This document shows positions 12,382 to 19,677 of a stretch of 64,000 nt of DNA, one piece after another. The first letter of the stretch is position 1, and each line of letters opens with the position of its first letter. Source of the stretch: Halosimplex salinum (GTDB taxonomy: Archaea; Halobacteriota; Halobacteria; Halobacteriales; Haloarculaceae); assembly GCF_003730195.1 (NCBI RefSeq), contig NZ_QWGG01000004.1, positions 62,001 to 126,000 on the forward strand, written 5' to 3'. The translations under genes and the position numbers were made by a program. Under the pieces are notes generated by a model. The model searched no databases. It was not told the origin of the DNA and saw only the letters and a list, made by a program, of their open reading frames with translations.

Positions 12382-13143
12382 CTACTTCGGTGGCCGGAGC
12401 CGGTAGTACCGGCGGTTGAGGTTGAACATGTACCCTTCCCGCATCGTCCGTAGGACCGCGTACGCGAGGAACGCGGACAGGACCGGGAGGATGAACGTCA
12501 GGTCGAACAGCAGGTGGGACTCCATCGAGATCAGGTTCTTCACGGACAGCACCGCGATGGTGAACGCGAAGACCACGCCGCTCACGCCGACGGCTCCCCA
12601 GAACGGCTGCTCGACGGGCCGCCGCGCCGCGCCCTTGTTCAGGAACGGCACGATGGCGACGAAGCCGACGACGACCAGGTTCGCGAGGACGCCGTACGTT
12701 CGGTCGGCCATGAGCTTCTGACCGCCCAGCAGGCTGATGTCCGGGTTGAGCGGGCCGAGTTTCAGCAGCCCGAACGACCAGTAGAGGTACCAGTCGGGCA
12801 GGATGACCGCCGGCGTCGACGAGGAGTCGGCCGGCGGGCCGATGTGCGGCGGGAGCGCGGCCGAGAGGAAGATGATCATGCCGACGAAGAAGCTCGTCAG
12901 CGCGAGGTTGCGGATCATCTCGTGGGGCCACGTCGGGAACGCCAGCACGTCGCGCTCGACGTAACTGGACTGCTGACGCAGGTCCTGGTCCTCGCGGCGG
13001 GACCGCTCGAAGTACTCGTAGGTCAGCCGGGCGAGCCCCTGCTGGCGCGCTTTCCGCTCGCTCCAGGTCGGGGTCTCGTCGTCCGGCGGGACGATACCCG
13101 TGCCGTCGGTGCGAACTTCCTCGCTGTTGTCGTTGTCGCTCAT
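12382..13143 (-). CDS. Cytochrome b C-terminal subunit (subunit IV/PetD-like)
   Basis: 253 residues. An acidic, charged N-terminal extension of about 90 residues precedes helices corresponding to E-G/H of cytochrome b. The quinol-oxidation-site motif reads PDWYLYWS (canonical PEWY) near residue 121, so Glu is replaced by Asp. Four hydrophobic segments follow. It forms the quinol site together with the separate N-terminal cytochrome b encoded just upstream, a split as in cytochrome b6f. Only 4 bp separate the two genes. Confidence 0.88.
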   Translation of the reverse strand: MSDNDNSEEVRTDGTGIVPPDDETPTWSERKARQQGLARLTYEYFERSRREDQDLRQQSSYVERDVLAFPTWPHEMIRNLALTSFFVGMIIFLSAALPPHIGPPADSSSTPAVILPDWYLYWSFGLLKLGPLNPDISLLGGQKLMADRTYGVLANLVVVGFVAIVPFLNKGAARRPVEQPFWGAVGVSGVVFAFTIAVLSVKNLISMESHLLFDLTFILPVLSAFLAYAVLRTMREGYMFNLNRRYYRLRPPK

Positions 13144-13147
13144 TGTA

Positions 13148-13951
13148 TCAGTGTGGTTCCGCGATGCCCTGCATCCAGACGATGCCGATGTGGACCGCGA
13201 TCAGCCCCGTCGTGACAAACGGGAGCACGAACACGTGCAGGATGTACATCCGCTGGACCGTCGACTGGCTGAGGGTGAACCCGCCGAACAGCAGCTGGGC
13301 CACCCACTCGCCTATCAGCGGGATGGAGAGGCTCATCTCGACGCCGATCTGGCCGGCCCAGAAGGCCAGCTGGTCCCACGGGAGCAGGTAGCCCGTGTAC
13401 CCGAACACCATCGTCAGCGAGATGAGCACGATGCCGATGATCCAGTTGAGTTCGCGCGGCTCCTTGTACGCGCCCGTGAAGTACACGCGCAGCATGTGCA
13501 GGAACACGGCCGCGACCATCACCTGCGCCGACCAGCGGTGGAGACTCCGGAGGAAGAACCCGAAGTTCAGGTCGGTCATGATGAACGTGATGGAGTTGTA
13601 CGCCAGCGCCGGATCGCCGTTCGATGCGCCCGCGCCGGGCGCGTAGTAGAACCCGAGCAGGGCCCCCGATATCGCCGCGACGACGTACGCGATGGTGGAG
13701 AACGACCCGAGGGCGTACAGCGGATACCAGTACCAGAACTTGTTGTCCAGGTTGTACTGCTCCGTGTGGCTCTTGGGCATCTGGAAGTTGACCTTGTAGT
13801 ACATGTTCTCCATGATCTCCAGATAGTCGACGATGCGCAGGCGCCTGTCGAGCCACAGCAGTACGGTGAGGTAGATCTCCTCGATGGCCGTCAGGTTGCG
13901 ATTCTCCATCCAGGTGTCGTGGTCGTGTTCGTCCTTGCGTTCTAAGCTCAT
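13148..13951 (-). CDS. Cytochrome b N-terminal subunit (b6-like)
   Basis: 267 residues with four core membrane helices. Haem ligand pairs are visible: H138 and H152 in the second core helix (SLHRWSAQVMVAAVFLHMLR), and H239 and H254 in the fourth (ILHVFVLPFVTTGLIAVHIG). The 14- and 15-residue spacings suit bis-His coordination of the two b haems. The N-terminal 75 residues are a polar extension. It carries electrons across the membrane in a quinol:halocyanin-type oxidoreductase with the Rieske protein upstream and the PetD-like subunit downstream. Confidence 0.92.
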   Translation of the reverse strand: MSLERKDEHDHDTWMENRNLTAIEEIYLTVLLWLDRRLRIVDYLEIMENMYYKVNFQMPKSHTEQYNLDNKFWYWYPLYALGSFSTIAYVVAAISGALLGFYYAPGAGASNGDPALAYNSITFIMTDLNFGFFLRSLHRWSAQVMVAAVFLHMLRVYFTGAYKEPRELNWIIGIVLISLTMVFGYTGYLLPWDQLAFWAGQIGVEMSLSIPLIGEWVAQLLFGGFTLSQSTVQRMYILHVFVLPFVTTGLIAVHIGIVWMQGIAEPH

Positions 13952-13954
13952 CTG

Positions 13955-14836
13955 TCAGTCCTCCGGTCGCGGGCGCGCGACGAACTGTACCTGGGTCGGG
14001 CTGAACGGCTCGTAGATCGACTGGTGACACTGACAGTACACCGCGTCCTCGCCGTCGAAGTTCGCGCTCCCTTCGAGCTGTTTGTAGCCCGGCACACAGC
14101 AGAAGTGCGTGCACTTGTTGATCCAGGCCATGAAGTCCTGGTCCGTCGCCGCGTCGATGAAGCTCTGGATGGAACTCGGAAGGTCGCTGAACTGGCCCTC
14201 ACCGTTCGCCATCTGGGAAACCTTGGGCGAGCGGAGTACCTGCACCGGAAGCGTCTTCGCGCCCTCGGCCTGCGAGCGCCACGTCGCGCTCGCGGGCTTA
14301 CCGAGGCCGTCGCGACCGATGCCGTTCCCCCACGTCTCGTAATCGTCGAACATGTCGACCGTCAGGATTGCGTCGCCCTCGACGTCCTGTTGCCACTCGT
14401 AGGCGGGCGGCGGACTGGGCGACGCGCGCAGGAAGTTGTCCGCGTCGGCCCCCGGCTTGACGCCGTGGTAGCCCTCGAGCCCACAGTACTGGAACCACTG
14501 CGAGGAGTAGGTCGTCCCGCCCATGTCCATCTCCGCGATGGTCCGTTCGATACCCTGCACGGTTTCCGTGCTCGCTTCCGGGAAGATCCCCTGAAGCTCG
14601 CCGGAGTCGTTCACTTCGAGCGGGACGATCGGCATCCCGCGCGGCGCGGGGCCCGCGGTGTTCTCGATGGCGATGTACTGCGTCGGACCGCCACCGCCGC
14701 CCGAGGCCGCCGTCAGCGTGTTCATGGCGGCCGCGCCGCCGGTCCCGACGCTGGCCAGCGCCGCGCTGCCGACGACGCCTTTCACGAAGCGTCGACGACC
14801 TGTTTCGCCCGGATACTTGTCTTCGTCCAGTGGCAT
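13955..14836 (-). CDS. Rieske [2Fe-2S] iron-sulfur protein
   Basis: 293 residues. The N terminus has an RRRF motif followed by a hydrophobic stretch (FVKGVVGSAALASVGTGG), fitting a Tat signal that remains as a membrane anchor. The cluster ligands are in CTHFCC (about 241-246) and CQCHQS (about 267-272), with CTH and CxCH supplying two Cys and two His. The long region before the cluster is larger than in bacterial Rieske proteins. It would accept electrons from quinol at the cytochrome b subunits and pass them to halocyanin. It sits 3 bp from each neighbour. Confidence 0.92.
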   Translation of the reverse strand: MPLDEDKYPGETGRRRFVKGVVGSAALASVGTGGAAAMNTLTAASGGGGGPTQYIAIENTAGPAPRGMPIVPLEVNDSGELQGIFPEASTETVQGIERTIAEMDMGGTTYSSQWFQYCGLEGYHGVKPGADADNFLRASPSPPPAYEWQQDVEGDAILTVDMFDDYETWGNGIGRDGLGKPASATWRSQAEGAKTLPVQVLRSPKVSQMANGEGQFSDLPSSIQSFIDAATDQDFMAWINKCTHFCCVPGYKQLEGSANFDGEDAVYCQCHQSIYEPFSPTQVQFVARPRPED

Positions 14837-14839
14837 TGT

Positions 14840-15229
14840 TTATCGTTTGTAGTAGGGGTAGACGGCTCGTTTCACGCTCTCGATGGGGTCTTCCTCGGTG
14901 AAGGGCGTCCCGTCGACGTCCTCCTCGCGAACGTAGAGGTCCTCCCACTTGCGGCGTCGTTTCTTCACTATCATCACGTCCGGCAGGAACTCCTTCCGGT
15001 AGACCATCAGGATGAAGGCGAGGTCGATGAAGATGATCGCGAGGATACCGCCCAGATACATGTTCCCGAGCGGGCTGTACCCCCAGCCGTTGACGAGGCC
15101 GTACGTGAACAGACCGACGAAGACGACCTCGACGATCGTCAGCAAGACGATCGCGACGGCCGCGGCCGTGCTCTCACGCGCCGGCTCGTAGCGGTGGATG
15201 TCGCCGTAGGTGCTTCCCGACGAGGACAT
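14840..15229 (-). CDS. Small membrane protein of the cytochrome b operon (DUF7318-like)
   Basis: 129 residues with two membrane helices (about 22-45 and 58-76) and a basic then acidic soluble tail ending YPYYKR. Its ATG overlaps the halocyanin stop (TGATG) and its stop is 3 bp from the Rieske start. The family is, as I recall, DUF7318. Tight coupling between a copper protein and the Rieske gene makes an accessory or assembly subunit likely, but nothing in the sequence shows a cofactor site. Confidence 0.65.
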   Translation of the reverse strand: MSSSGSTYGDIHRYEPARESTAAAVAIVLLTIVEVVFVGLFTYGLVNGWGYSPLGNMYLGGILAIIFIDLAFILMVYRKEFLPDVMIVKKRRRKWEDLYVREEDVDGTPFTEEDPIESVKRAVYPYYKR

Positions 15230-15894
15230 CAGTTGTTCCCTCCTTTCGCGTTCGGTGATTCACCGTACTTCAGCAGGAAGAACGTGAACAGCAGCGAGAC
15301 GACCATCATCACGATAGTCGACACGCCGACGTAGTGGGGGTGGAAGGGCACGCCCATGTGTTCGGGGTTCAGCTCCTCCGCCCCGCCGCCGGACTCCACT
15401 TCGACGGTGGAGACCTCGTCGCCGACGGCGACGGCGCCTTTCATGCCCTGCCCCTCGTGGGGCGCACAGTAGTAGGTGTACATGCCGCCGGTCTCGAGCG
15501 TCGGCTCGTACGTCTCGCCCTCGGGGATCGTGTCGAACTCCCCGCCTTCTGTTCCCCCCAGTCCGCCGCCGTCGGGCTGGCTGTTGGGTTTGACGTTGTG
15601 CCCGCCCTCGATGAACTCGAAGACGACCGTCGTCCCGGGGTCGACCCACACCTTGGTCGGCGTGAACGCGAACCCTGAGCCGGTGCCGACCTCGACGGTC
15701 ACTTCCGACTCGCCGCGCAGGTCCTCGTAGCTCCCGTCTTCGGCGTCCTCCACGTACGACGGCCACTCGGGCTGGACACTCCCGCCCCCGCCTTCCTCCT
15801 GCTCGGCGGCGGCGACCGTGCCGGCCCCGACGGCAGCGGCGGACGCACCACCTGCCGCGCCGCCGGCCGTCCGCAGAAAGTCCCGTCTATTCAT
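15229..15894 (-). CDS. Halocyanin, first gene of the cytochrome b/Rieske operon
   Basis: 221 residues, a close paralogue of the halocyanin at 8911-9576. It has a Tat signal NRRDFLRTAGGAAGG, an acidic Gly-rich spacer, a cupredoxin domain with the copper ligands GHNVKP and YYCAPHEGQGM, and a C-terminal membrane helix (STIVMMVVSLLFTFFLLKYG). It probably takes electrons from the Rieske protein and hands them to a terminal oxidase. A TATA box at 15921-15928 sits about 30 bp before the ATG, so the operon promoter is here. Confidence 0.93.
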   Translation of the reverse strand: MNRRDFLRTAGGAAGGASAAAVGAGTVAAAEQEEGGGGSVQPEWPSYVEDAEDGSYEDLRGESEVTVEVGTGSGFAFTPTKVWVDPGTTVVFEFIEGGHNVKPNSQPDGGGLGGTEGGEFDTIPEGETYEPTLETGGMYTYYCAPHEGQGMKGAVAVGDEVSTVEVESGGGAEELNPEHMGVPFHPHYVGVSTIVMMVVSLLFTFFLLKYGESPNAKGGNN

Positions 15895-16069: not shown

Positions 16070-17065
16070 TCAGGACACGTCGGTGTCACCGTCGCCATCC
16101 CGACCGGACGACGACTCCGACCCGTCGCCGGGCAGCCCCTCGGACCGTTCACCCGGGATCCCCTCCGTTTGTCGACCCACTTCCGCCTCGTCGGGGAGGA
16201 AGTCCGGTCGCTCGCCGGGTTCGAGTTCGACTGCCCGCAGCCGATTCCGGTACTCCTCCGCGCGGAACTTGTCGGACAGCCGCGCGTTCGCGACGACCGC
16301 GAACAGCAGGAGTCCGATCGCGAGGAAGAACACCCCCGCCACGAGCATCGCCACGACGTTCAGCGACGAGACCGACCCGCCGCCCGGCGGCGCGACCACG
16401 CCGATGCTGATGACGAGCCACCCGCCGATCAGCAGGACGCCCGCCAGCACCTGGAAGCCGGCGACGACCTGCAACATCGTGTTGCCGAGTTCGCCGCTCC
16501 CCTCCGGGACCTCCTGCGGTTCGGGCAGGAGGTCGTCGGGCGGCGCCTCCGGCACGTCGTAGGACTCCATCGAGGCGAGCGCCACCGTCGGTTTCACGTC
16601 CCGGAGCACCGTCCCGTGGCCCTCGACGGAGCCGTCGGCGCGGACGGTCGCGTACCCCTCGTCGGAGTACGCCAGCACCCGGTCGTCCTGGCGTTCGACG
16701 CGAGCGAACACCTCGCGCTCGGCGACCCGGCGCTTCAGGTCGGCCTCGACGCGGTCGAGCAGTTCCTGCCCCGTGATCCACGACTCCGGGTCGAACACCG
16801 CCTCCCACTCCTCCGAGGACATCGACGCCATGTCCGACGGCCCGAAGTTCTCGAAGTCGTACTCCGCCTCGACCTGCTCCCGGAGCGCCTCGATCGACTC
16901 GGTCTCGGTGGTCTCCGCGCCCTCCTCGACCTCGCCATCCGCGGCTTCGCCGCTTCCTCCGTCCGAGGTCTCGCTTCGCTCGACCTCGCCATCTGCGGCT
17001 TCGCCGCTTCCTCCGTCCGAGGTCTCGCTTCGCTCGACCTCGCCGTCGTCAGCTTCGCCGCTCAT
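16070..17065 (-). CDS. Membrane protein with acidic tandem-repeat N terminus (DUF7319-like)
   Basis: About 331 residues. Residues 2-47 hold an 18-residue repeat, two and a half times (SGEAADGEVERSETSDGG). A central soluble domain (about 60-190) follows, then two membrane helices (LQVVAGFQVLAGVLLIGGW and VVAMLVAGVFFLAIGLLLF) and an acidic tail. It lies upstream of the respiratory operon on the same strand, separated by that operon's promoter. I recall it as DUF7319, one of the conserved companions of haloarchaeal cytochrome bc. Function unknown. The start is the ATG at 17065. Confidence 0.65.
   Translation of the reverse strand: MSGEADDGEVERSETSDGGSGEAADGEVERSETSDGGSGEAADGEVEEGAETTETESIEALREQVEAEYDFENFGPSDMASMSSEEWEAVFDPESWITGQELLDRVEADLKRRVAEREVFARVERQDDRVLAYSDEGYATVRADGSVEGHGTVLRDVKPTVALASMESYDVPEAPPDDLLPEPQEVPEGSGELGNTMLQVVAGFQVLAGVLLIGGWLVISIGVVAPPGGGSVSSLNVVAMLVAGVFFLAIGLLLFAVVANARLSDKFRAEEYRNRLRAVELEPGERPDFLPDEAEVGRQTEGIPGERSEGLPGDGSESSSGRDGDGDTDVS
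16931..17065. repeat. 54-bp tandem repeat inside the DUF7319-like gene
   Basis: Two complete 54-bp units (16931-16984, 16985-17038) differ at a single base, followed by a partial third unit running to the start codon. The unit carries the self-complementary CTTCGCTCG-type motif common in this genome. It encodes the acidic repeat SGEAADGEVERSETSDGG. Near identity indicates a recent or still active copy-number expansion. Confidence 0.85.
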
Positions 17066-17127: not shown

Positions 17128-18192
17128 TCAGCCGAGCGGGATCCAGGCGGCCGCCGGCAGGAGACCGAGCACCGAGAGACCCGCGATCACGCCGGACGTG
17201 ACGACGATACTCGCCGCGGGCGGGTCGAGATGCGTCTCCGCGTGTGCGTAGAAGATCCGCTGTACGAGTTCGCCGAGTAGCCCTCCGAGAACGCCGAACA
17301 CGCCACCGAGAACGAGGGCGACACCGAGCGTGACCGACGACCCCACTACGTCGGGCGCGGGCGCCCCACCCGAGACGCCGGCGAGCGCCACCACGACGGT
17401 ACTCGCAGGAAGCGCCATGTGATGCGTGACCGGTATCTCGGCGACCCCCGCACAGAGCAGGAACAGGGCCGCGACCGTGATCCCGAACGCGAGGAACGCG
17501 CTCCCGGTCACGTACGCGGTGTAGGCCGAGAGTACCCCGACGACGAACCCGAGTGCGGTGACGTGACTCCAGCGGTACTGGTACGGGAGCCAGGGGTCGA
17601 CACCGCCGTCCGCGTCCCCGTCGGACTCCGGCTCGCCGCCGTCGGTACTGACCGACTCCCGCCCGTCGTCGAACGGCGACATGTCGAGCAACCGCCCCGC
17701 GGGCGCGCCGACGACGCTGTAGCCGAGCACGAGTCGATGCGCGAGCGCAGAGACGACGACACCGAGGGCGACCGGGTCGACCGGAACCGCGAGCGACCCG
17801 GACAGCGTCGCGACCCAGTAGCCGACGACGCCGAAGGCACCGCCGACGGCGAGCACGTCGGGACGACTCCCGAGCCCGCGAGTCACGTCCTTGGGGTCGA
17901 ACGCCGCTCCCCCGGCGTCGAGATACCCCCTCCGCGAGGCGTAGGCCAGCGCCGCGGCGCCGCCGCCGAACGCGACGTGCGGGCCCAGCACGACGCCGAA
18001 CCCGATCCCCCCGGTCACGTCGACGGGGACCGACCCACCGAGCGACCTGGTCGCCATCGCGTACAGTTCGCCGACGACGACTACGAGTCCGGCGAGCGAG
18101 AAGGAGGGGAGCGCGCCCACCGCCGCGCCGAACGCGCCACCGGCGAACGCCGCCAGGAGGAGCTCCGCGGCGAACAACTCCGCCAGACTCAT
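17128..18192 (-). CDS. Unrecognised polytopic membrane protein coupled to an ars-type operon
   Basis: 354 residues with about ten hydrophobic segments and a hydrophilic acidic loop of about 40 residues in the middle (around 175-215). Charged or polar groups inside the membrane region include HRLVLGYSVVG and EIPVTHHMALP. The ATG overlaps the stop of the LMW phosphatase gene (ATGA), giving the order regulator, phosphatase, membrane protein. In ars operons this position usually holds ArsB or ACR3, but I see no signature of either. It could be a transporter for the same substrate; this is inferred from context only. I recognise no named family with confidence. Confidence 0.6.
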   Translation of the reverse strand: MSLAELFAAELLLAAFAGGAFGAAVGALPSFSLAGLVVVVGELYAMATRSLGGSVPVDVTGGIGFGVVLGPHVAFGGGAAALAYASRRGYLDAGGAAFDPKDVTRGLGSRPDVLAVGGAFGVVGYWVATLSGSLAVPVDPVALGVVVSALAHRLVLGYSVVGAPAGRLLDMSPFDDGRESVSTDGGEPESDGDADGGVDPWLPYQYRWSHVTALGFVVGVLSAYTAYVTGSAFLAFGITVAALFLLCAGVAEIPVTHHMALPASTVVVALAGVSGGAPAPDVVGSSVTLGVALVLGGVFGVLGGLLGELVQRIFYAHAETHLDPPAASIVVTSGVIAGLSVLGLLPAAAWIPLG

Positions 18193-18656
18193 TCCTCGGT
18201 CGAGGCCCGCTCCGAGAACTCGTCGAACAGCGCGACGACGTTCTCCGCCACCGTCTCGCGGATCTCACGGACCGCCTCGAGGTCCTGTCCGTGTGGGTCC
18301 GGGAGTGCCCAGTCGCGCACGTCGACGCCCGACGCCGGATCGAGTTCGAGCGTCGAACAGCCCATCGTCGCGACGTAGTCGCAGGCCGCCAGTTCGTCGG
18401 TCGTCACCCCTCGTGGCTCCCGGTCCGAGATGTCGATGTCGACCTCGGCCATCGCGTCGACGACGACTCCGTGGACGCTGTCGGCGGGGTCCGTCCCGCC
18501 GGTGACGATCTCCACCCGGTCTTCGAGGCCCCGGCGCTCGCGCTCGCGCTCGGCGAACGCCGTCGCCATCTGGCTCCGACCGGCGTTCTGGACGCAGATC
18601 AGCGCGACGCGGACCGGGTCGTCCGGGGCCGCCCCGGCGGGTCGGTCGTCGCTCAT
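18189..18656 (-). CDS. Low-molecular-weight protein phosphatase / arsenate reductase family
   Basis: 155 residues. The catalytic P-loop CVQNAGRS is near residues 21-28 (C-x5-R-S). The general acid region DWALPDPHGQ is near residues 118-127, and a second cysteine (TMGCSTLE) is near residue 101. LMW-PTP fold proteins with this NAGRSQ loop are typical arsenate reductases (ArsC) that reduce arsenate using paired cysteines; tyrosine phosphatase activity is the alternative. Being between an ArsR-type regulator and a membrane protein, all overlapping by ATGA, favours the arsenic role. Confidence 0.82.
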   Translation of the reverse strand: MSDDRPAGAAPDDPVRVALICVQNAGRSQMATAFAERERERRGLEDRVEIVTGGTDPADSVHGVVVDAMAEVDIDISDREPRGVTTDELAACDYVATMGCSTLELDPASGVDVRDWALPDPHGQDLEAVREIRETVAENVVALFDEFSERASTEE

Positions 18657-19048
18657 CGTCCCTCCCGCGTCTCGTCGAGCGCGGCGAGCAGTCGCTCGGC
18701 CCGGTCGGTCGCGTCGTAGTACCGCCACGTCCCGTCCTTGCGACGGGTCACCAGCCCCGCGTCGTGCAGGTCCGAGAGCGCGTGACTGACCGCGCTGTCG
18801 CTCACGTCGAGCAGCGGCGACAGTTCACAGACGCAGAGTTCGTCCGGCGCCGCCGCCAGGTAGCGCACGATGGCGTGGCGCGTCTCGTCGCTCAGCGCCG
18901 ACAGCGCCGTCAGGTCGCTCTCCGAGTCGGCCGGTACCTCGCCGGCCAGTCCCTGTAGTTCGTCGATCCGGTCCGTCACGTCCGCCTCGCAGCACTCGTC
19001 TAGTTGCTCCGAGAGCAGACGCCGTAGCCGCGTCGCGTCGGTTGCCAT
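18653..19048 (-). CDS. arsR: ArsR/SmtB-family winged-helix repressor
   Basis: 131 residues. The winged helix covers about 45-130 with ALSDETRHAIVRYL, then ELCVCELSPLLDVSDSAVSHAL as the recognition helix region, then a wing (TRRKDGTWRYYD). The ELCVCEL segment is the classic As(III)/Sb(III) site of ArsR. The N-terminal 40 residues form an extra helix with CC (DECCEAD), which might add thiol ligands. Its stop overlaps the phosphatase start. A leaderless mRNA is expected: TATA box at 19073-19078, with a palindrome between it and the start. Confidence 0.88.
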   Translation of the reverse strand: MATDATRLRRLLSEQLDECCEADVTDRIDELQGLAGEVPADSESDLTALSALSDETRHAIVRYLAAAPDELCVCELSPLLDVSDSAVSHALSDLHDAGLVTRRKDGTWRYYDATDRAERLLAALDETREGR

Positions 19049-19059
19049 GGTTGATTGAA

Positions 19060-19073
19060 TGAACAAGCGTTCA
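19060..19073. promoter_or_regulatory. Candidate ArsR operator
   Basis: Perfect inverted repeat TGAAC-AAGC-GTTCA. It lies between the minus-strand TATA (CTATAT, 19074-19079) and the arsR ATG at 19048, so a bound repressor would block the transcription start. The half sites suit ArsR-family autoregulation. Confidence 0.55.
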
Positions 19074-19173
19074 TATAGCTGTTGCGAACACGTGCGGCCG
19101 GTCGGCTGCCGGGCGACGACGGCCCGAGCGGACATTCGGCACGGTTTAGGCACAACAGCCGATAGCCTCCGTC

Positions 19174-19677
19174 ATGGTGACGGACCGGGTCGTCGCGACG
19201 GTGGTTCTGCTGGCCGTGACGGCGAGTTTCCCCTGTTTCTTCTACGGGGCCTGGTACATCATCGAGACGGAGCCGGTCACGTGGGACGTGTTGATGCACC
19301 ACCTGAAGTTCGTCGTGACGGGGCTGGTGTTGACGACGGTGCCGATGCTGACGTGGATGGCGCCGCGCCTGCTCGACCAGTTCGGCAGTTTCGCGATGGT
19401 CCACGCCTTCCTCGGACTGCAGGCCTACGCGATGCTCGCCTTCGGTTTCACCGGGATCGTCCGAATCTTCTACGCCAAGCGCCGCTACGACCTGTACAAC
19501 GACTACGACGAGGACGTCTTGCTCGACGAGATCGGCTCCGACCGGATGAGCCACTGGCGCTCCCGCGTGCGCATCGGCGTCTTCGGCTACGTGATCTTCT
19601 GGGTGCTCGCCTACGGGGCCGGCGTCGCGCGGTACGCCCTCCGGTACAACGTGCTCGAACTCGTCCCCGGACTCTGA
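19174..19677 (+). CDS. Four-helix membrane protein (DUF7321-like)
   Basis: 167 residues with about four membrane helices (6-28, 42-62, 70-94, 134-152). It has conserved-looking intramembrane His (MHHLKFVV; MVHAFLGLQAY), which could bind haem b as in small membrane cytochromes. The loop between helices 3 and 4 is rich in Tyr and Asp. I recall a haloarchaeal family DUF7321 for this protein. Function unknown. It is divergent from the arsR operon with about 125 bp between them. Confidence 0.6.
   Translation: MVTDRVVATVVLLAVTASFPCFFYGAWYIIETEPVTWDVLMHHLKFVVTGLVLTTVPMLTWMAPRLLDQFGSFAMVHAFLGLQAYAMLAFGFTGIVRIFYAKRRYDLYNDYDEDVLLDEIGSDRMSHWRSRVRIGVFGYVIFWVLAYGAGVARYALRYNVLELVPGL

Follow-up and report, generated by a model that had tools for sequence, protein, structure and literature searches.

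A candidate As(OH)3 exit channel in a haloarchaeal ars-type operon belongs to a membrane protein family mostly linked to glycerol kinase

Introduction

How does arsenite leave a cell whose ars-type operon carries, behind a repressor and an arsenate reductase-type protein, a membrane protein that is neither ArsB nor ACR3? The question is raised by a three-gene operon in the window, that is the whole 64 kb stretch of haloarchaeal DNA analysed here. We know of no arsenite exporter or glycerol facilitator that has been identified in haloarchaea, for which glycerol is a main carbon source. According to the accessible part of a review, ArsB plays no part in the arsenic resistance of Halobacterium, for which a new kind of transporter has been suggested (PMC3600143). 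The operon described below makes two questions directly testable, namely which protein lets arsenite out when ArsB is not involved, and how haloarchaea take up glycerol without GlpF: among 391 genomes of the class, GlpK is found in 341 and MIP aquaglyceroporins in 20. If true, the reading that we favour would extend the known metalloid/glycerol channels by a family outside the MIPs, with hosts that are genetically tractable.

Results

An ars-type operon with an ArsR/SmtB-like operator

The operon consists of three minus-strand genes, in the order arsR, arsC-like LMWP gene and the gene of a membrane protein (hereafter MEM), and both junctions are ATGA overlaps. From upstream to downstream the features are:

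19053–19079, minus strand: operator/promoter directly 5' of arsR, with a TATA-like TATAT and an inverted repeat
18653–19048, minus strand: arsR, 131 amino acids, ArsR/SmtB-family repressor with the As(III)/metal site ELCVCEL
18189–18656, minus strand: arsC-like LMWP-fold arsenate reductase, 155 amino acids, catalytic loop CVQNAGRS
17128–18192, minus strand: MEM, 354 amino acids, polytopic membrane protein, predicted small-neutral-solute/As(OH)3 channel

All the elements from which a preliminary description had recognised an ars-type operon (ArsR with ELCVCEL, the CVQNAGRS protein, the membrane protein and the ATGA overlaps) are present. It had placed the operon at 17128–19079; the elements do lie there, and the coding part stops at 19048, the remainder being promoter and operator. 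The gene upstream of the operon is divergent (19174–19677) and encodes a DUF7321 protein.

The putative operator contains a perfect inverted repeat, TGAAC-N4-GTTCA, at 19060–19073, which is overlapped by the TATA-like element and which we take to be built from the classic half-site of ArsR/SmtB operators. It is the sole copy in the 64 kb window, and 10 copies occur in 1.396 Mb of loci. A similar operator, exact or degenerate, is found at the same position before arsR in most of the other ars-type loci compared; four loci (L041, L043, L051 and L053) have poor versions only.

On the other side of the operon, a minus-strand gene at 16070–17065 encodes a DUF7319 protein whose N-terminus carries near-identical acidic repeats (of the GEADDGEVERSETSDGGS type). 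This gene adjoins a cytochrome b/halocyanin-like cluster at 12382–15894.

The repressor and the reductase belong to known families

ArsR matches Pfam HTH_5 (8.4e-13) and scores 80.3 bits with the NCBIfam model HTH_metalloreg (NF033788, cut-off 55), which together with the ELCVC site places it in the ArsR/SmtB family; its PDB relatives are SmtB and CadC. Similarly, the second protein belongs to the LMWP fold, with a Pfam LMWPc match of 3.4e-24 (86.1 bits, cut-off 23.2), CVQNAGR as its CX5R motif and Corynebacterium glutamicum ArsC as best PDB matches (3t38, 1.9e-17; 3rh0, 3.3e-14). Its scores with the NCBIfam thioredoxin/glutaredoxin ArsC equivalog models (49–51 bits) fall short of their cut-offs (157–174 bits). 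Residues C21 and C100 are invariant in all 13 aligned MEM-linked LMWPs from 12 loci, an alignment that leaves out the frame-broken LMWP of L002.

Judged from their families, ArsR would repress the operon through the TGAAC-N4-GTTCA operator and would be released when As(III) binds to the ELCVC cysteines. The LMWP-type ArsC, judged from its family and its conserved cysteines, would reduce arsenate to As(III).

The reductase gene varies in two other loci. In the Haloglomus ars locus (L002:4486–4892, plus strand), tblastn finds the LMWP split over two frames, possibly by a frameshift or a sequencing error. In Haloferax elongans (L003:4116–4996, plus strand), two tandem ArsC-like LMWP genes lie between arsR and MEM, the first of which deviates in the region after C100.

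The third protein belongs to a haloarchaeal family absent from Pfam and NCBIfam

Hydropathy analysis of MEM gives 10 segments and a loop at 166–207 with a net charge of -8, in keeping with the roughly ten hydrophobic segments and acidic central loop described before. MEM matches no Pfam and no NCBIfam family at E<=1 and no PDB sequence. It is thus, as had been suspected, an unrecognised protein that is neither ArsB nor ACR3: no NCBIfam match means none to ACR3 (TIGR00832), and ArsB (PF02040) is missing both from the Pfam result for MEM and from that for 52 members of its family. The same Pfam result holds no MIP/aquaglyceroporin (PF00230) match, and the NPA motif is absent from the 354 residues. 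The 52 members list 19 Pfam families at E<=1, none of them convincing and none of them the urea transporter family (PF03253), and a profile made from them returned just three PDB rows (E 1.2–1.5), which we judged to be chance matches. A phosphate-related role had been suggested as well; nothing speaks for it, and a phosphate transporter was dropped as a lead, as MEM has no family match and no phosphate-transport gene is among the identified neighbours.

MEM is a member of a haloarchaeal family that has no entry in the versions of Pfam and NCBIfam used here. The family occurs in 303 of the 391 sampled genomes of the class and, in a phylum-wide sample, in 34 of 294 genomes, all 34 of them from the window's own order; it is restricted to haloarchaea. 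The window genome has three copies.

Most sampled family members follow glycerol kinase, and one clade follows ars genes

We examined 108 loci longer than 8 kb, 107 of them distinct (L042 duplicates L003). This sample follows match ranking and is non-random, with lower-ranked members partly covered, so the true number of ars-linked loci may be higher. In 72 of the 108, glpK lies directly upstream of MEM on the same strand with a median gap of 105 bp (L047 also has an LMWP gene downstream), and the GlpK, GlpA and GlpB of one such locus score above curated cut-offs. The arsR-LMWP-MEM arrangement accounts for 12 rows, or 11 distinct loci, and because it is kept in so many, the order of the operon is above chance. 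In 14 of the 108 rows MEM has an LMWP gene no more than 2.5 kb away, and 12 of these rows also have arsR there on the same strand; L043 has LMWP-MEM with arsR nearby on the opposite strand.

MEM and the glpK-linked proteins are homologous over their full length, with about 44–56% identity and invariant residues common to both. In a tree of 107 rows, the ars group and L043 together form one side of a branch (12 rows, SH-aLRT 93). This ars-type clade spans at least eight genera and includes L051 and L053, though their proteins share no more than about 52% identity with the window MEM. A locus from a genome of another family (L047:5435–7075, plus strand) reads glpK-MEM-LMWP, and its MEM falls in the glycerol clade, which indicates that an ArsC-like gene joined the MEM family at least twice; the linkage in L047 is apparently independent.

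This linkage makes it probable that the glpK-linked paralogs stand in for GlpF as glycerol facilitators of haloarchaea. A probable relative has been noticed before: HQ1732A of Haloquadratum walsbyi, an uncharacterised membrane protein beside glpK that, in the accessible part of the publication, is said to serve perhaps in glycerol metabolism or uptake (PMC5496347). Its glpK neighbour and genomic context make it very probably a member of the same family, although it is described there as having 7 TM and in a glycerol context only, unlike MEM.

In two ars loci a further gene is inserted between LMWP and MEM, namely an arsM in L041 (NF008823, 334 bits, cut-off 263) and an arsM homologue in L044. 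Such insertions would fit an exporter of methylated arsenicals, MAs(III) or DMAs(III), rather than of inorganic arsenite, and aquaglyceroporins are reported to conduct MAs(III) as well as As(III) in the portion of the source at hand (PMC1440775). However, 9 of the 11 distinct ars loci, the window included, have no ArsM match within 2.5 kb of MEM, and we consider an exporter of this kind very unlikely.

ACR3 is scarce in genomes with an ars-type MEM

The window genome (99.98% complete) contains no ACR3, ArsB or MIP. Counting known ars-type members only, nine of the 391 genomes have an ars-type MEM (G000, G070, G104, G211, G234, G274, G299, G306 and G329, from eight genera). An ACR3 match at E<=0.001 is missing in eight of the nine, compared to 90 of all 391 (hypergeometric P 4.5e-5, for related genomes and a test devised after the data were seen). 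With the curated cut-off, above which 207 of the 391 score, P is 0.012, to be read with the same two reservations. Genome G104 has both an ars-type MEM and ACR3, which counts against the channel reading favoured below. The opposite holds in G161 and G275, two genomes from the same genus as the window, which have ACR3 and only MEM paralogs of lower identity.

ArsB is found in none of 12 genomes checked. An ArsP_1 permease (PF03773) is encoded elsewhere in 8 of 12 genomes tested, the window genome included, and this makes it harder to claim MEM as the sole possible exit. In the window genome it lies on another contig, where the surrounding 12 kb give no ArsR, LMWP, ArsM, Glp or MEM matches; it is a possible further efflux route.

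Could the MEM of the ars operon still be a glycerol channel, in an operon that ties an LMWP signal, regulatory or oxidative, to the uptake of carbon, with arsenic not a substrate at all? The family is mostly glpK-linked, L047 joins glpK, MEM and LMWP within the glycerol clade, and some members of the ArsR and LMWP families have functions unrelated to arsenic, all of which counts in favour. Yet the ars-type proteins form a clade of their own, whose genes have arsR and LMWP as partners and, in two loci, an arsM insertion, and ACR3 scarcity, the ELCVCEL site and the ArsC relatives of the reductase all point to arsenic. We regard a role in glycerol uptake alone as quite unlikely.

Conserved residues and predicted fold suggest a channel

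Polar positions with a conservation of at least 95% are common to the two clades, ars (12 rows) and glpK (71 rows), which differ consistently at only five positions, all conservative, and no cysteine is conserved in the aligned members of either clade. The common polar residues and the lack of a conserved cysteine fit a pore for neutral solutes of glycerol size rather than a thiol-based arsenite site. In addition, the N-terminal half of MEM can be aligned with its C-terminal half (prob 74, E 2.8e-5), a likeness that resembles duplicated channels and is consistent with internal duplication.

AF2 models of the window MEM (pLDDT 91.6, pTM 0.91) and of a glpK-linked member (pLDDT 93.4, pTM 0.92) agree in their architecture: about ten helices cross the membrane, each half contains short half-helices, and the acidic loop is disordered. 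A Foldseek search with the 354-residue protein, proposed in the preliminary description, gave nothing at E<=0.001 (PDB, viral). Its top MFS rows were set aside as uninformative (TM <0.2, rmsd >=15 Å). When Foldseek's candidates were compared again with VIA-align, urea transporters ranked first: seven entries head the result for the window MEM (Z 7.3–8.0) and 13 that for the glpK-type model (Z 7.7–8.3), where unrelated helical models can reach about 8. Amt/Rh proteins come next (Z 4.5–5.8 and 5.2–6.3, respectively), and the remaining rows have Z <=5.4. The superposition on urea transporters has an rmsd of 4–5 Å over about 190 of the 354 residues. Urea transporters (PF03253) and Amt/Rh channels, which conduct small neutral solutes, are thus the best structural resemblance of both models, with no match in sequence; urea transporter sequences sought in 100 genomes for a profile comparison yielded weak sub-cut-off pieces in three only. 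We take the models as a consistent hint of a urea-transporter-like fold.

These results bear on whether MEM is instead an active secondary carrier for arsenite or antimonite efflux, like ACR3 or ArsB, derived from a glycerol carrier. It occupies the position of the pump in a genome without ACR3 or ArsB, and its conserved charged residues K101, R153, E308, R312 and D323 could couple ions. But the same charged residues are conserved in the glpK-linked clade, the best fold relatives are channels, and MEM, unlike ACR3, has no conserved cysteine. A carrier of this type seems unlikely to us.

A passive exit for arsenite as the favoured reading

In gene content and order, the operon is similar to the AqpS operon of Sinorhizobium meliloti, which also combines ArsR and an arsenate reductase with a membrane protein other than ArsB or ACR3. 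AqpS, however, is a MIP with NPA motifs, whereas MEM has neither a MIP match nor NPA, about ten helices and a different predicted fold. In the parts of these papers that were available, AqpS replaces ArsB and AqpS-ArsC fusions exist in Salinispora (PMC6205960), and AqpS, the fusion and MIPs in ars operons are covered by PMC6205960 and PMC4435449. By analogy, the logic of AqpS, downhill exit of As(III) by a glycerol-type channel, may also apply to MEM.

On balance, we lean towards reading the operon as an ArsR-controlled haloarchaeal unit for arsenate detoxification, with MEM as the passive As(OH)3 exit channel of a glycerol-type family. The As(III) formed by the reductase, mostly uncharged As(OH)3 and as such a known glycerol mimic, would leave the cell down its gradient through MEM, acting as a channel and not as a pump. 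This reading builds on the observed genes, overlaps, operon conservation, family, clade, absence of ACR3, ArsB and MIP, and predicted fold; from these we infer substrate, direction and passivity. Against it stands that a channel alone could not drive arsenite out up a gradient, and that it would make cells sensitive to external arsenite. The earlier proposal of a new arsenite transporter remains credible given the fold, the family, the conserved operon, the arsM insertions and the ACR3 scarcity. Its view of MEM as an ars-operon transporter needs revision in that the family also occurs outside ars operons. Since glycerol kinase is the usual partner of the family, a channel of the arsenite/glycerol type is more probable than a pump.

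More broadly, and with a chance that we would put just short of even, haloarchaea may have swapped aquaglyceroporins for a urea/ammonia-channel-like family of their own, whose main branch would be the missing glycerol facilitator and whose ArsR/ArsC-wired branch would be an arsenite exit replacing ArsB, convergent with the AqpS strategy. In the haloarchaeon Halobacterium NRC-1, the arsADRC/arsR2M system likewise stands for arsenic resistance with no functional ArsB, but its gene set differs and includes ArsA and ArsD. A plasmid search found MEM relatives in three records, none from Halobacterium. The literature searched, mainly outside subscription journals and in part seen as portions of text, held no link between the MEM family and arsenic.

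Family members outside the two main arrangements

The remaining 22 of the 108 loci show no linkage to ars or glp genes, which suggests that the substrate range of the family may be wider. Single neighbourhoods differ in other ways. At L075:4348–6073 (plus strand), MEM stands between a gene that we take to be GlcG/HbpS-like and glpA and glpB, with no glpK directly upstream on the same strand, an arrangement seen in one of the 108 loci. In L058 and L079, a third, Halosimplex-type MEM paralog follows the gene of a large membrane protein, presumably AglB/STT3-like, and precedes that of a small protein whose end, by eye, is winged-helix-like.
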